Below, piece after piece: positions 19,094 to 48,248 of a stretch of 64,000 nt of DNA (its first letter is position 1; each line of letters opens with the position of its first letter). The notes under the pieces were generated by a model, which saw only the letters and a program-made list of their open reading frames with translations, did not search any database and had not been told where the DNA came from. This DNA is from an uncultured Prevotellaceae bacterium. GTDB lineage: Bacteria > Bacteroidota > Bacteroidia > Bacteroidales > Muribaculaceae. The stretch is taken from NCBI GenBank assembly GCA_900318205.1, contig ONJS01000006.1:1-64000 (forward strand), given 5' to 3'. The position numbers and the translations under genes were made by a program.

Positions 19094-19154
19094 TAGACTT
19101 TAGACGTTAGACTTTAGACGTTAGACTTTAGACTTTAGACGTTAGACTTTAGAC
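19094..19154 (+). repeat. Degenerate TTTAGAC/GTTAGAC heptamer repeats
   Basis: About eight imperfect units alternating TAGACTT and TAGACGT in tandem just after the M13 peptidase stop. Not CRISPR: there are no spacers. Similar AT-rich heptamer strings occur in other gaps of this window. Confidence 0.7.
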
Positions 19155-19155
19155 G

Positions 19156-19200
19156 ATTAGCCGTTAGCGGACATCCATCTGTTAACGGCTAATTGGTTTT
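19156..19200 (+). terminator. Terminator after the M13 peptidase
   Basis: ATTAGCCGTTA (19156-19166) pairs perfectly with TAACGGCTAAT (19183-19193) around a 16-base loop and is followed by TGGTTTTT. It separates the peptidase from the sigma-fusion gene. Confidence 0.75.
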
Positions 19201-19277
19201 TAACAAAGATTTTTTTCGGCTCCATGCAGTCTTTTGGTCAAATATGGCATCATACCAATAAAGGACAACTTTACTGG

Positions 19278-20948
19278 ATGGACATGGAGCGTGTCATCGG
19301 GGCAGCTATGGCTGGTGACCAACAGGCTATCGCCAAGCTCTATAATGCGTATTCCCACAAGGTGTTGGGGATATGCTATAACATTGTTGGCAACCGTGCC
19401 GTGGCCGAGGAATTGTCCCATGATGCCTTTGTGCTCGCATTCTCCAAGCTGGACCATCTGCGAAACCCTGAACGTTTTGACGCTTGGTTGTCAAGCATTG
19501 CGGCCAACGTGGCATTGCGCTACAAGCAACGCCATCATACGTTGGTCACGGTCCCTGCTGATGACATTCCAGATGAAACTTGGATTGCAGAGGAGCCTAC
19601 CGACATGCCGACGATGGACGAAATCATAGCTGCCGTAAACGCCCTGCCCAATGGCTACGGCAAGGTGTTCAAAATGGCTGTCATGCAGGACATGTCGCAC
19701 AAGGAAATCGGTGAAATCCTGGGCATTGCCGCCCATTCCTCATCATCGCAACTGGCACGCGCCAAGAAGATGTTGCAGCACTCGTTGGCCAAGTATTGGG
19801 CTATCATCCTGCTTGCGCTGCTCACGCCTCTGGCCTTGCTATTCCTGCGCCAGCCCAAAACAATTGATGAGAAACAGCCCAAGACGGCAAAGACGAACGA
19901 GCCCATAGTCACCGATGACAATCCACAAGTGACCAAACCTGCCATACTGCAGCGCAAAGAAAGCCGCAACATGGCCATTACCGTCCCCGAGAGATACAAG
20001 CAACCCAGTGTGAGCACCACAGACACAACTCAGCATGAGGAAGTGCCAAGACAGATGGTTGACACTACAACAGTTCCTATAGAAAACACGCTGCCTCACC
20101 TGAAACTGAATGGTAACATCCACTTTGCAAACGTCGGTCAAGGCAATACCATCCGGCCTAAGAAAGATGACTTCAAGCGCTGGTCAGCCGATTTAGCTTA
20201 TACTGGTCAGCCCTCACCAGAGGCAGATCGGATGACTCCTCAAAACTTCATTGTCACCAATTATGAAGCTCCATCAGTTCCAGGAGAGCCTGATCCCACC
20301 TTGACGATTGATAACTGGACTGATTATATCGCTTATCTTGAGGTAAAGAGTGACATCACGAGTGAACTATCTGAAGAGGATCGCATCATGCGACAGATTG
20401 CCAAGAGCAACGAGCCGCTCAACAATGGCCAAATTGTGCGCAAGACCCACCACAGCCTGCCGCTTACCTATTCCTTGTCGTTGAGGTATCAAGCCAACAA
20501 GAGAATCGGCTTGGAGAGCGGCATTCAGTACACAAGACTCAACTCGTTGTTTCAAACGGGTGAGGGAATCAACCGCATCGATGAGAAACAGCGCATCGAC
20601 TACCTTGGCGTTCCTATAAAGGTGTCCTATAGGATTTGGAGCGGCAAGCATGTGGGCATCTACACCTCGGCGGGTGTGACACTGGAGATTCCAGTCAAGT
20701 CAACAGTCACGACAGAGTATATCTTGAACAACCAGCCAGAACTGCGAGACAGCCATTATCTGGATGTGCCGCTGCAATGGTCAACGGGCATTGGCATTGG
20801 TGTTCAGTACAATATCACTCCCAGCATCAGCATCTTTGCAGAGCCTGGCGTACAGTACTATATCCCTGACGGCAGCGGCTTTGAAACTTACCGCACACAG
20901 CATCCGTTCACCATCACCATTCCCGCCGGATTGCGATTCACCTGGTAA
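19278..20948 (+). CDS. ECF sigma factor fused to a membrane helix and an outer-membrane-barrel-like domain
   Basis: 556 residues from the ATG at 19278, preceded by AAAGGA; an in-frame ATG at 19224 would add 18 unconserved residues. Residues about 2-85 are sigma region 2 (AAMAGDQQAIAKLYNAYS, AEELSHDAFVLAFSKLDHLR). Residues about 110-172 are region 4 (MDEIIAAVNALPNGYGKVFK, MSHKEIGEILGI). One membrane helix follows (WAIILLALLTPLALLFL, about 174-191), then a polar Pro/Thr-rich linker of roughly 110-200 residues. The C-terminal domain has alternating-residue strands (YSLSLRYQANKRIGLESGIQ, GIGIGVQYNITPSISIFAEP) ending in RFTW, an aromatic end typical of outer-membrane barrels. I infer that the sigma factor is tethered to the inner membrane and linked to a surface sensor, released by proteolysis or conformational change. 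It is the first gene of a likely three-gene unit. Confidence 0.88.
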   Translation: MDMERVIGAAMAGDQQAIAKLYNAYSHKVLGICYNIVGNRAVAEELSHDAFVLAFSKLDHLRNPERFDAWLSSIAANVALRYKQRHHTLVTVPADDIPDETWIAEEPTDMPTMDEIIAAVNALPNGYGKVFKMAVMQDMSHKEIGEILGIAAHSSSSQLARAKKMLQHSLAKYWAIILLALLTPLALLFLRQPKTIDEKQPKTAKTNEPIVTDDNPQVTKPAILQRKESRNMAITVPERYKQPSVSTTDTTQHEEVPRQMVDTTTVPIENTLPHLKLNGNIHFANVGQGNTIRPKKDDFKRWSADLAYTGQPSPEADRMTPQNFIVTNYEAPSVPGEPDPTLTIDNWTDYIAYLEVKSDITSELSEEDRIMRQIAKSNEPLNNGQIVRKTHHSLPLTYSLSLRYQANKRIGLESGIQYTRLNSLFQTGEGINRIDEKQRIDYLGVPIKVSYRIWSGKHVGIYTSAGVTLEIPVKSTVTTEYILNNQPELRDSHYLDVPLQWSTGIGIGVQYNITPSISIFAEPGVQYYIPDGSGFETYRTQHPFTITIPAGLRFTW

Positions 20949-21029
20949 AAAACCTTGTCACTGGCATGCAGTCCTTGATGGATTGGAAGCATCTACACTT
21001 GTAGAAAACCAAACCATCATGGACTTAAA

Positions 21030-22082
21030 ATGTACAAACTGACTGACTACCTCTACAATGGGCTATTGTATCTCAACAATATGTCCCGACCACGACACAA
21101 GTTGTTGAGCCAACTGATGATTTATGCCACAACGGCTTGCCAGTCACATTGCAAGCATTGCAACATCTGGCAGAAAAAGCGTGAACTCCTGTCGCTCGAT
21201 GACATCAAGCGTGTCATGCAGAGCCGCTGCATTACGAGCAGGACGACCATCGGGCTCGAAGGAGGCGAATTCATCCTGCATCCGCAAGTCAATGAGATAT
21301 TGGCATGGTTTCATCAGCACCACCCTAATTACACGCTGCTGACTAATGGCCTCGCTCCTCAACGGGTTATCGATGCTGTTAGACACTACCATCCACGCCA
21401 CCTTTATGTCTCACTCGATGGGGACAAGGAAACTTACAAGAGAATGCGCGGCTGCGATGGATACGACAAGGTGATTGAGGTCGTTGAAACATTGAAGGAC
21501 GAGGTACCGCTGTCGCTCATGTTCTGCCTGTCGCCGTGGAACTCGTTCAAGGACATGGAGCATGTCATCGATGTGGCCTTGCATTACGGCATTGACGTGC
21601 GCATCGGCATCTACGGCACGATGGCGTTCTTTGATACCACGAGCGAACTGATTGAGGCGACCGATTTTGTGGGCCGTATTCCCTCTAACATCCACAAGAC
21701 ACAAGAGAACTATGACTTTGTAGCACTTTATGATCAATGGCGGAGTGGCAACCTGCGACTTCGGTGCCAAAGCATCATGAGCAGCCTGGTCATCCACAGC
21801 AATGGGGACGTGCCGTTGTGCCAGAATCTTGATGTCAAGTTGGGCAACATCCACAATCAGTCGCTGGATGATATTTTCAACGGTCAAGCTAATGCGCTCA
21901 CTCAGTGTCGATACTCCAGGCAGTGTAACGGATGCTGGATTAACTTCCATCGCAAATATGACATCATCCTAATGCACAACCTCGAGCGACTTTTGCCCAA
22001 ACGGCTCATTGAACGATTCTATGGCCCGTATCAATGGACTGACGACACAAAAATGACCTATCATAAACTGTTGAAATCATGA
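21030..22082 (+). CDS. Radical SAM protein with SPASM/twitch-like C-terminal cysteines
   Basis: 350 residues. TTACQSHCKHCNIW gives the CxxxCxxC cluster ligands Cys37, Cys41 and Cys44. 'TIGLEGGEFILHPQV' holds a GGE-type SAM-binding motif and 'HLYVSLDG' a core strand. The C-terminal part has 'SNGDVPLCQNLDVKLGNIHNQ' region followed by CRYSRQCNGCW, the cysteine pattern of SPASM or twitch auxiliary cluster domains. Such enzymes modify peptides or small substrates; the substrate here is unknown and no clear precursor peptide is seen nearby. It starts 81 bases after the sigma-fusion gene and overlaps the next gene by 4 bases (ATGA). Confidence 0.9.
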   Translation: MYKLTDYLYNGLLYLNNMSRPRHKLLSQLMIYATTACQSHCKHCNIWQKKRELLSLDDIKRVMQSRCITSRTTIGLEGGEFILHPQVNEILAWFHQHHPNYTLLTNGLAPQRVIDAVRHYHPRHLYVSLDGDKETYKRMRGCDGYDKVIEVVETLKDEVPLSLMFCLSPWNSFKDMEHVIDVALHYGIDVRIGIYGTMAFFDTTSELIEATDFVGRIPSNIHKTQENYDFVALYDQWRSGNLRLRCQSIMSSLVIHSNGDVPLCQNLDVKLGNIHNQSLDDIFNGQANALTQCRYSRQCNGCWINFHRKYDIILMHNLERLLPKRLIERFYGPYQWTDDTKMTYHKLLKS

Positions 22083-23107
22083 TACAACAACTCATCAACC
22101 ACTATAAGCGAATGCGCACCGAGCGCTATCTCAACGAGACCTACCGTTGTCAATACGCCTTCGTCGGTATGGGTCAACACAGCTTGACCAACCTTTATCC
22201 TGTGCTTCACTACCTGCAAGTGCCGTTGAAATACATCTGCGTGACCAGTGAACGCAAGGCTCGGCTCATCGAACGCAAATTTAAAGGGATAAAAGCCACG
22301 ACCAGGCTTGATGACGTCCTTGATGATGAAGACGTGAAAGGTGTGCTGGTTGCCGCATCGCCCAGTGCCCATTTTTCCATAGCCTGCAGCGTCTTGCAGA
22401 GTGGCAAATCGCTGTTTATCGAGAAGCCGCCTTGTCAATCGGTCAACCAACTGCAAGAACTAATCAAGCTAAAACGAGAATTCAAGTCACCGGTAGCGAT
22501 GGTTGGACTTCAACAACGCTATGCGCCTGTAGTCCAGTTGCTCAAGAAGCGGCTAAAGCGCGACCGCCTCCTCAACTATGACCTTCATTACCTCACTGGC
22601 GCTTATCCAGAGGGTGATGCCCTGCTCGACCTGTACATCCACCCGCTAGATTTGGCAACTTGGCTGTTTGGCAAGGCCGAAATCGTCTCCTATGTAGAGA
22701 TTGATGAGCATTCCTATATCCTGATGCTTCGCCACCAGCACATCGTCGGCACGATAGAGTTGTCCACCTGCCACTCCTGGCAAGACGCACAGCAATCACT
22801 GACTGTCCACACTCGCTCAGGCTGCTATTACATGTCCCACTGCGAGGAGTTGAGTTTTGTTCCCAATCAGACTGCCATCGCAGGCGTACCTATAGAGAAA
22901 ATCTTCCCCCGTCGTCAATCGGTTGAATACCTGTACCGACACGACGGTTTCTCCCCGACCCTTGCGGGCAACTCTATTTACAGCCAAGGCTTTTTCCAAG
23001 AGGTCACCACCTTTGTCAACGCCGTCAAGGGCAAGAGGGCAAATGTCCTTACCGACCTTCAATCCATCGAACCGACGCTAAAACTGATAGACAACATCAG
23101 GGGATAA
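22079..23107 (+). CDS. Gfo/Idh/MocA-family oxidoreductase
   Basis: 342 residues. The N-terminal Rossmann part (CQYAFVGMGQHSLTNLYPVL) lacks the tidy GxGxxG form but keeps GMG. 'GVLVAASPSAHFSIACSVLQ' and 'KSLFIEKPPC' supply the family EKP lysine near residue 118. 'DLYIHPLDLATWLFG' resembles the catalytic histidine region of the C-terminal domain. Probably an NAD(P)-dependent sugar or cyclitol dehydrogenase-like enzyme; the substrate is unknown. Start and stop overlap (ATGA) with the radical SAM gene, indicating coupled translation. Neither protein has a signal peptide. Confidence 0.87.
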   Translation: MIQQLINHYKRMRTERYLNETYRCQYAFVGMGQHSLTNLYPVLHYLQVPLKYICVTSERKARLIERKFKGIKATTRLDDVLDDEDVKGVLVAASPSAHFSIACSVLQSGKSLFIEKPPCQSVNQLQELIKLKREFKSPVAMVGLQQRYAPVVQLLKKRLKRDRLLNYDLHYLTGAYPEGDALLDLYIHPLDLATWLFGKAEIVSYVEIDEHSYILMLRHQHIVGTIELSTCHSWQDAQQSLTVHTRSGCYYMSHCEELSFVPNQTAIAGVPIEKIFPRRQSVEYLYRHDGFSPTLAGNSIYSQGFFQEVTTFVNAVKGKRANVLTDLQSIEPTLKLIDNIRG

Positions 23108-47657: not shown

Positions 47658-48248
47658 TTACATCGTGAGGGTGATGTCGTGCTCCTCGGCAATGCGGCGC
47701 ATGTTGAGGATAGCATAACGCATACGTCCCAGGGCCGTATTGATACTCACGCCGGTGGTATCGGCGATTTCCTTAAAGCTCATGTTCTTGTAGTAGCGCA
47801 TCACCAGTACCTCACGCTGGCTTTCGGGCAGCGCTTTGATCAGGCGCTTGACATCGTCATGTATCTGGGTGGTGATGATGTCGTCCTCGATGGTGCTTGC
47901 TGCAAGTTCCTTGCGGTTGAGGATGTTCACCTCACCGTCATCGGTTGACTGCAGGTTCTCGGCCTTGATTTGCCTGTAGTAGTCAATGATGTGATTGTGG
48001 GCGATGCGTGTGATCCATGCCGGGAAGTGTCCGTTCTCGACATATCGGCCCTGCTTGATGGTCATGATGGCTTTGACAAAGGTATCTTGGAAAATATCAT
48101 TAGCTGCATCCTCGTTTTTTACCGCATGGTATATATACATGAAAAGGCGGTCCTTGTGTCGCTCCAGCAGCGCATCAAAGGCCTCGTTCTTGCCATCGAC
48201 ATACAGCGAAATGAGTTGCTCATCGCTCTTGTCTCTATATACTTTCAT
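47658..48248 (-). CDS. ECF-family RNA polymerase sigma factor
   Basis: 196 residues. Region 2 includes 'EAFDALLERHKDRLFMYIYH', 'DIFQDTFVKAIMTIKQGRY' and 'FPAWITRIAHNHIIDYYRQ'. Region 4 includes 'IKALPESQREVLVMRYYKNM', 'SFKEIADTTGVSINTALGRM'. No anti-sigma gene lies beside it. It has its own primary-sigma-type promoter with a leader of about 110 bases. Highly similar stand-alone sigma factors are common and conserved in Bacteroidales. The frame after its stop is discussed separately. Confidence 0.93.
   Translation of the reverse strand: MKVYRDKSDEQLISLYVDGKNEAFDALLERHKDRLFMYIYHAVKNEDAANDIFQDTFVKAIMTIKQGRYVENGHFPAWITRIAHNHIIDYYRQIKAENLQSTDDGEVNILNRKELAASTIEDDIITTQIHDDVKRLIKALPESQREVLVMRYYKNMSFKEIADTTGVSINTALGRMRYAILNMRRIAEEHDITLTM

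Follow-up and report, generated by a model that had tools for sequence, protein, structure and literature searches.

Introduction

Surface signals have to cross two membranes and the periplasm, and they usually do so by way of three proteins: a receptor, an anti-sigma factor and a sigma factor. In this article I will discuss a gene whose single product may do the work of all three and which, if that is true, would be about the smallest such relay: a fusion of an extracytoplasmic function (ECF) sigma factor, a membrane helix, a linker and a predicted outer-membrane barrel, encoded in a stretch of 64,000 nucleotides (the window; positions 1 to 64,000 of the forward strand of contig ONJS01000006.1, assembly GCA_900318205.1) from an uncultured Prevotellaceae bacterium, probably of the ruminant gut, that GTDB places in the Muribaculaceae. 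The closest described systems are the Dma (dual-membrane-spanning anti-sigma factor) proteins of Bacteroides thetaiotaomicron, and for the N-terminal sigma domain of one of them, Dma3, the paper on Dma2 cites Pardue 2024. Dma3 (bt_2778-2779) is described in the Dma2 paper as a member with its own N-terminal sigma domain and no adjoining sigma gene; expression of its two-gene locus rises when dma1 or dma2 is deleted, and no role has been assigned to it in print (PMC13088901). Dma2 itself has an adjoining ECF gene, and on loss of Dma2 the genes next to it rank with those whose expression rises most (PMC13088901).

The fusion resembles Dma3, by the latter's published description, in carrying an N-terminal sigma domain on a Dma-like protein with no adjoining sigma gene, and it resembles Dma2 in its membrane helix, long disordered tether and, as predicted, its C-terminal barrel (PMC13088901). 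It differs from Dma2-type split systems, which consist of two genes and have an N-terminal anti-sigma domain, in being one gene without that domain. IutY of Pseudomonas putida (ECF243) and the groups ECF48, ECF52 and ECF53 likewise place a sigma factor, a helix and an extracytoplasmic part on one polypeptide (PMC5411451 and PMC8999054); unlike the fusion, they have an anti-sigma part and, by the description given there, no outer-membrane barrel (PMC8999054). IutY, a fused sigma/anti-sigma protein that is freed by Prc and RseP (PMC5411451), works with a separate receptor, whereas the fusion carries its own predicted barrel, a comparison that is made by description (PMC5411451, PMC8999054). I would file the fusion as a Dma3-type member, going by its build as described in print, and the architecture is thus already known, because Dma3 has been published with an N-terminal sigma domain (PMC13088901); the original prediction for this gene, made from the window alone, had held the sigma factor at the cytoplasmic end to be what sets it apart from the known Dma proteins, and that contrast falls away.

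What appears unreported is the regulatory circuit, that is, a pair of putative promoters and the exchangeable targets behind them; in the literature searched, which did not cover subscription papers and preprints, neither this pair nor the lack of an anti-sigma domain nor the exchangeable targets came up. I consider it likely that the gene encodes a one-protein, autoregulated surface-signalling sigma factor of the Dma3 type that serves itself and the neighbouring operon. Since the Dma3 architecture has been noted once, without known targets, the promoter pair is of value in naming candidate target genes and DNA sites, and if the extended circuit proposed below holds and Dma3 works alike, these would be the first direct target genes for that orphan class, together with a mechanism.

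One polypeptide from sigma factor to predicted barrel

Both sigma-70 regions exceed their Pfam cut-offs and the superfamily model TIGR02937 gives 62.1 bits against a cut-off of 42.9, which makes the N-terminal end an ECF sigma factor, as the original prediction had read it. The coordinates of this and the other features are collected in Table 1. By hydropathy there is one hydrophobic helix only, beginning straight after region 4, and its placement together with the sigma factor on a single polypeptide is borne out by intact orthologs and by fusions in other genera. The linker that follows is polar, as had been claimed, and its length of about 108 residues (193-300, bounds that are my own division) is a little short of the 110 or more first given.

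The C-terminal domain, which had been called barrel-like and ends in RFTW, matches OMP_b-brl (PF13505) at residues 397-522 with an E-value of 1.1e-6 and 29.4 bits when the whole protein is searched, and with 31.6 bits when the domain is searched alone, both above the curated cut-off of 28.7; PF13568 reaches 18 to 20 bits, under its cut-off of 27. Across 19 family members at E 0.001, PF13505 matches 14 and PF13568 matches 18. I assign the domain as a barrel because of the Pfam match and because split Dma-like proteins have homologous barrels, while the closed fold, weighed below, is the part of the claim that was not confirmed. As I read the sequence, the domain would consist of a first strand, a long loop (about residues 311-390) and strands 2-8.

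A longer product starting at ATG 19224 (574 aa) was considered, 18 upstream codons being conserved in frame, and rejected, since this ATG overlaps the -35 box of promoter 1 and is GTG in the ortholog L021, and the conserved block coincides with the promoter; 19278 is therefore the likely start. Among the 17 Sigma70_r4_2 matches in the organism's own genome (a 3.62-Mb draft in 53 contigs), the fusion is the sole one that lies in a frame of more than 350 aa. The nearest other sigma match within the window is 27 kb off and none adjoins the fusion; nor, among the gene's own neighbours in the window and the next downstream gene, did I see an adjoining partner gene such as a separate anti-sigma factor. 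The window holds a second ECF sigma gene at 47718-48221 on the minus strand, a distant relative with 25% identity.

Table 1. Positions in the window of the fusion gene, its domains, the putative promoters and the genes that they may serve.
Feature	Position	Strand	Basis or remark
Sigma - membrane helix - linker - barrel fusion gene	19278..20948	+	556 aa, single open reading frame (ORF)
Sigma-70 region 2, residues 21-86	19338..19535	+	Pfam PF04542 (Sigma70_r2), E 1.7e-10
Sigma-70 region 4, residues 114-166	19617..19775	+	Pfam PF08281 (Sigma70_r4_2), E 1.5e-10; recognition helix with HSSSSQL
Membrane helix, about residues 173-192	19794..19853	+	Hydropathy; abuts region 4 directly
Polar linker, about residues 193-300, presumed periplasmic	19854..20177	+	Length similar among the fusions listed
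C-terminal barrel domain (predicted), residues 301-556, ends RFTW	20178..20945	+	Pfam OMP_b-brl, homology to split Dma-like barrels
Promoter 1, putative own promoter	19225..19253	+	-35 TGCAGTC (19225-19231), N16, -10 CATCAT (19248-19253)
Promoter 2, putative target promoter	20967..20995	+	-35 TGCAGTC (20967-20973), N16, -10 CATCTA (20990-20995)
Inverted repeat (RNA hairpin)	20970..21025	+	-25.1 kcal/mol, z-score -5.2
Putative target gene 1, radical SAM / SPASM protein, 350 aa	21030..22082	+	Pfam PF04055, PF13186
Putative target gene 2, GFO/IDH/MocA oxidoreductase	22079..23107	+	Pfam PF01408; 4-nt overlap with target gene 1

Split relatives and the missing anti-sigma domain

The relation to Dma proteins that had been proposed is borne out within the same genome, where on another contig a 187-aa sigma gene overlaps a 415-aa gene for a helix, a tether and a barrel, the barrel being 35% identical to that of the window protein (E 4.7e-24) and the sigma factor 27% identical (E 1.5e-15). 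Split genes of this sort are named Dma-like here for their build and set beside Dma1 and Dma2 by description; aligned as profiles with hhalign, fusion and split barrels match over 167 columns with an E-value of 2.8e-55. Ahead of their membrane helix the split proteins have some 45-60 residues (read from printed segments), whereas region 4 and helix are separated by -3 to +7 residues in 73 distinct fusions. A model built from these split N-termini (45 rows) matches 48 of the 53 ORFs that hold a barrel only, and of the five that it misses four are pieces of interrupted fusions. Its two matches among 114 fusion ORFs (73 distinct) are to copies of a single protein and lie inside the barrel, so that in none of the 114 does it find anything between sigma factor and helix. 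The fusion is without the anti-sigma domain of its split relatives, region 4 running into the helix, and because no such domain stands between sigma factor and helix, no anti-sigma factor seems to be needed, as the original prediction had argued.

In trees of 92 rows (58 fusions and 34 split genes; 14 near-identical sequences were dropped from 106, duplicates and interrupted loci having been left out beforehand) the fusions are one side of a branch, with support of 100/99 in the sigma tree and 98/96 in the barrel tree. Rooting a set of 36 hand-picked rows on the genome's other ECFs makes the fusions a clade (100/96) and leaves the split rows unresolved (28/0), and one fusion event from a split pair is the simplest reading of these sequences. 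That homologs might always occur as two genes did not come out, the fusions having their own branch and coexisting with split pairs. Within that branch the loci L053 and L066 have sister sigma domains (98/97) and barrels from different clades, their sequences changing at the junction of region 4 and helix, and the helix-linker-barrel sensor module seems to have been swapped between fusions at this point.

Conservation and distribution

Searching contigs of named metagenome-assembled genomes (MAGs) gave at least 19 close loci, at least 15 of them with intact full-length orthologs at 81-93% identity; three of the 18 that span the whole gene are interrupted, each at a different place (L015, L022 and L023), and L022 has also lost promoter 1. 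A survey for conserved fusion had been proposed, and it came out in favour of the single gene: at least 25 further full-length fusions occur in the genus at 28-36% identity (101 genomes), and fusions that were checked on their loci are present in at least 10 further genera of the family, in a search of 397 genomes, and in at least three other families of the order, in a search of 393. A partial sample of 296 genomes from the phylum, those listed belonging mostly to other orders of the class, gave one full-length match at E 1e-40, in the organism's own genome. The named relatives are MAGs that go under the labels uncultured Bacteroidales, Muribaculaceae or Prevotellaceae, with sheep or roe deer in the titles of some, and the RUG series among such MAGs is presumably from rumen. 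Going by these sequences, the window ORF is a true single polypeptide and no assembly join.

Selection can be followed along the protein in 16 close sequences, where the ratio of nonsynonymous to synonymous substitution rates (dN/dS) is 0.107 in region 2, 0.105 in the piece between regions 2 and 4, 0.028 in region 4, 0.117 in the helix, 0.257 in the linker, 0.173 in the first strand with loop 1 and 0.064 in strands 2-8. Region 4 thus has the lowest value of the protein and the linker is its fastest-evolving part, and these values by segment indicate that both ends of the protein are under selection. Two loci are worth describing beside these. A remnant at L027:4001-4408 keeps just 78 fusion residues, 99% identical, followed by an amidohydrolase gene and without the rest of the fusion or the radical SAM and oxidoreductase genes. 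At L172, in the nearly complete genome G471, a fusion-type sigma factor (helix PHSSSSQL) and a barrel lie in two overlapping frames, which may be a frameshift or a true re-splitting.

A putative promoter pair that travels with the fusion

A target promoter in common with the gene's own upstream region, which the original prediction had suggested looking for, exists as a sequence motif: TGCAGTC-N16-CATC has exactly two matches in the window, at 19225 and 20967, with 0.02 expected, one at the start of the fusion gene and the other 18 nt past its stop codon, ahead of the radical-SAM/oxidoreductase operon. With the longer pattern TGCAGTC-N16-CATCAT, promoter 1 is the sole zero-mismatch match of the whole genome. 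Where the gene begins, some 60 nt that include TGCAGTC-N16-CATCAT form a block conserved in 19 of 20 close loci (the window included; it is absent in the interrupted L022), the DNA further upstream being mostly unrelated between these loci, and the same kind of box stands ahead of fusions in other genera and families.

Counted with interrupted, truncated and duplicate loci left out, the motif lies upstream of 59 of 71 fusions (mean 1.0 and maximum 4 in 200 shuffles) and of 29 of the 40 that remain once the sigma domains are thinned at 80% identity (shuffles mean 0.4, maximum 3), and a second copy lies no more than 120 nt past the stop in 45 of 71 (mean 1.1, maximum 4). Both copies are present in 42 of the 71, with equal spacers in 37 of these 42. 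Sigma genes that are not fused in the fetched stretch (34 split and the broken L172) have the upstream motif in one case of 35, and split or broken Dma-like genes are followed by it in one of 36. A fixed pattern run over 297 genomes of the family finds 35 sites in 24 genomes, against two for the reversed control. Fusions are flanked by 27 of these sites, 22 on fetched loci and five by coordinates among the matches listed, the site in G213 being the most distant of them, about 250 nt upstream, and the fusions of G178 and G240 holding a stop within the match; of the remainder, two precede CotH-type genes and six are elsewhere. The CotH-type genes, in G302 (L219) and G170 (L213), have no adjoining fusion in the fetched stretch, and in G302 the pattern comes after a radical SAM gene.

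The final base of the -35 box varies with the recognition helix of the sigma factor, being C with SRSQ helices in 22 of 22 cases and T with other helices in 41 of 42 (7 of 71 were uncalled), and the first and second copies of one locus are mostly of the same -35 type. Taken together with the motif counts, this suggests that the ECF sigma factor switches on its own gene and the adjoining genes.

Exchangeable genes behind the putative second promoter

The radical SAM family of target gene 1 is also the next gene in the close loci L013, L018 (as a short frame) and L025 (after 397 nt), in other genera at L150, L154 and L161 and in another family at L156 and L157, and it stands behind further fixed-pattern sites as well. 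The radical SAM gene is present in 14 close loci, and 12 of these have a different gene in between, for a secreted protein, a BNR-repeat protein or an S41 peptidase, and where anything is inserted (13 close loci) a third strict copy of the motif lies ahead of the radical SAM gene in 11 and a weaker one in two. Cargo genes that differ at one spot behind promoter 2, followed by the third motif and then the radical SAM gene, can be seen at L009, L010, L014, L016, L020 and L024. Behind other fusions lie CotH, methyltransferase, MBOAT, acyltransferase 3 or serpin genes, going by the annotation of one representative of each, and the common theme of the target genes may be envelope or surface modification.

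A proposed mechanism and its rivals

Taking the domain order, the conservation, the absence of an anti-sigma domain, the fusions as one branch, the promoter-like pair and the -35/helix match as they stand in the sequences, I infer the topology, a silent tethered state, cleavage, a signal and the reading of both promoters by this very sigma factor. The N-terminal ECF sigma domain would lie in the cytoplasm, fused directly to an inner-membrane helix, and the linker would span the periplasm and end in a small barrel in the outer membrane, with the long first loop probably acting as the sensor. Region 4 would be held against the membrane, a tethering that takes the place of the anti-sigma domain of the split relatives, until a signal at the barrel, or failure of the barrel, makes the sigma domain available to RNA polymerase. 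Release would most simply come about through cleavage of the linker and membrane helix, a proteolytic step argued by analogy, because the sigma factor of IutY is freed by Prc and RseP (PMC5411451) and the same is expected for ECF48, ECF52 and ECF53 (PMC8999054); the freed sigma factor would then transcribe its own gene from promoter 1 and the radical-SAM/oxidoreductase operon from promoter 2.

In its fullest form this reading makes a whole outer-membrane-to-gene circuit out of one gene and two promoters, in which the barrel is both sensor and leash, no anti-sigma factor takes part, the regulon is almost only the gene itself and the next one, both ends are exchanged as cassettes (the sensor barrel at the junction of region 4 and membrane helix, the target gene behind a fixed sigma-dependent promoter) and, for the radical SAM target, a hairpin around that promoter could shut out read-through; I hold this extended version tentatively, somewhat nearer to doubt than to belief. 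With candidate sites in hand, a reporter would allow direct tests of the signal, the release and the regulon, and if sensors and targets are truly exchangeable, the system would be a natural modular switch for gut Bacteroidales.

Several points weigh against the likely reading, that of a released, autoregulated sigma factor. AlphaFold did not confirm a closed barrel, either for the full-length protein or for the barrel alone (mean pLDDT, the predicted local distance difference test, of 38 each, with 16 close sequences aligned), and at a mean of 38 the models are too poor to see any contact between sigma domain and tether, while a profile search of the PDB gave nothing credible (best E 0.094). 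The motif is missing upstream of 12 and downstream of 26 of the 71 fusions, and its expression was fitted by eye after the sequences had been seen, prior to the upstream and downstream counts; the co-variation of -35 base and recognition helix is close to a single contrast, because the SRSQ sigmas are mostly one clade; and another ECF sigma factor of similar specificity could read the motif sites. A tethered sigma factor might also be active without release. In the organism's own genome, sites with up to two mismatches number 130 against 68 for the reversed control, which leaves room for more targets, and the test of whether a site lies within an open frame excludes little, because promoter 1 itself falls in one. 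By that weak test, 31 of the two-mismatch and related sites that were inspected show no clear further target; 11 of the 12 sites with one mismatch lie within frames of at least 275 aa, and the one GCAGTCT-ATCWAT site is inside a 619-aa frame.

Among the rivals, it seems unlikely that the sigma domain acts while still bound to the membrane, its position shifted by the signal as in a one-component membrane transcription activator. The near absence of a spacer between region 4 and helix (-3 to +7 residues over the 73 distinct fusions) and the constraint on the helix (dN/dS 0.117) suit mechanical coupling, the latter as well as it suits a protease site; yet a sigma factor pinned by a C-terminal helix would have scant room for core polymerase and the -35 box, and IutY, the one fused ECF with characterised activation, works by proteolysis (PMC8999054 and PMC5411451). 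I give no more credit to the idea that the barrel reports its own assembly and the tether is cut on misfolding, so that outer-membrane biogenesis and not a ligand is sensed. Many outer-membrane proteins end in an aromatic residue. The fusion does so too (RFTW), and its strands 2-8 are strongly constrained (0.064) with the first strand and loop less so (0.173), all of which would fit assembly sensing, but the apparent exchange of sensors between sister sigmas at L053 and L066 suits a change of ligand better.

A decayed sigma domain, with only the barrel or tether of importance and the motifs read by another ECF sigma factor, is very improbable: the gene is interrupted in three of the 18 close loci that cover its full length, one of them (L022) also without promoter 1, and is reduced to a remnant at the 19th, which would fit such decay, but region 4 has the protein's lowest dN/dS (0.028), the -35 base tracks the recognition helix, and each interruption has a place of its own, as one would expect of assembly errors. 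That the fusion was itself made by an assembly join or frameshift I regard as next to impossible, even though drafts or metagenome assemblies are all that stand behind the window and its named relatives, for the same fusion recurs in at least 10 genera and at least three other families, in separate assemblies that include the single-contig genome G736; an assembly join is refuted for the family by these separate assemblies.

Minor features around the gene

The hairpin at promoter 2 takes in most of that promoter and ends just ahead of the radical SAM start codon. In an alignment of 13 distinct sequences its pairing is held in 94.9% of cells against 91.6% in shuffles, none of which is as high, and it falls to 20-48% when the arms are slid against each other. 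Changes on both sides are seen at two of 21 pairs and in seven cells, a number of cells that no shuffle reaches, but other controls are unfavourable, two both-sided pairs being reached by 155 of 500 shuffles and four pair types by 492 of 500. Folded without a control, 14 other second promoters give -5.7 to -26.3 kcal/mol, with the most stable folds at radical SAM loci in other genera. Since a transcript from promoter 2 would lack the 5' arm, only read-through could be stopped or silenced by the hairpin, and a promoter within a terminator or the shielding of a start site are possible roles.

Upstream of the fusion gene there is an M13 peptidase gene in three of 19 loci. In the window, short direct repeats (TTAGACTTTAGACG-like) lie between it and the fusion at 19095-19165, and L011 has similar repeats at the same place.

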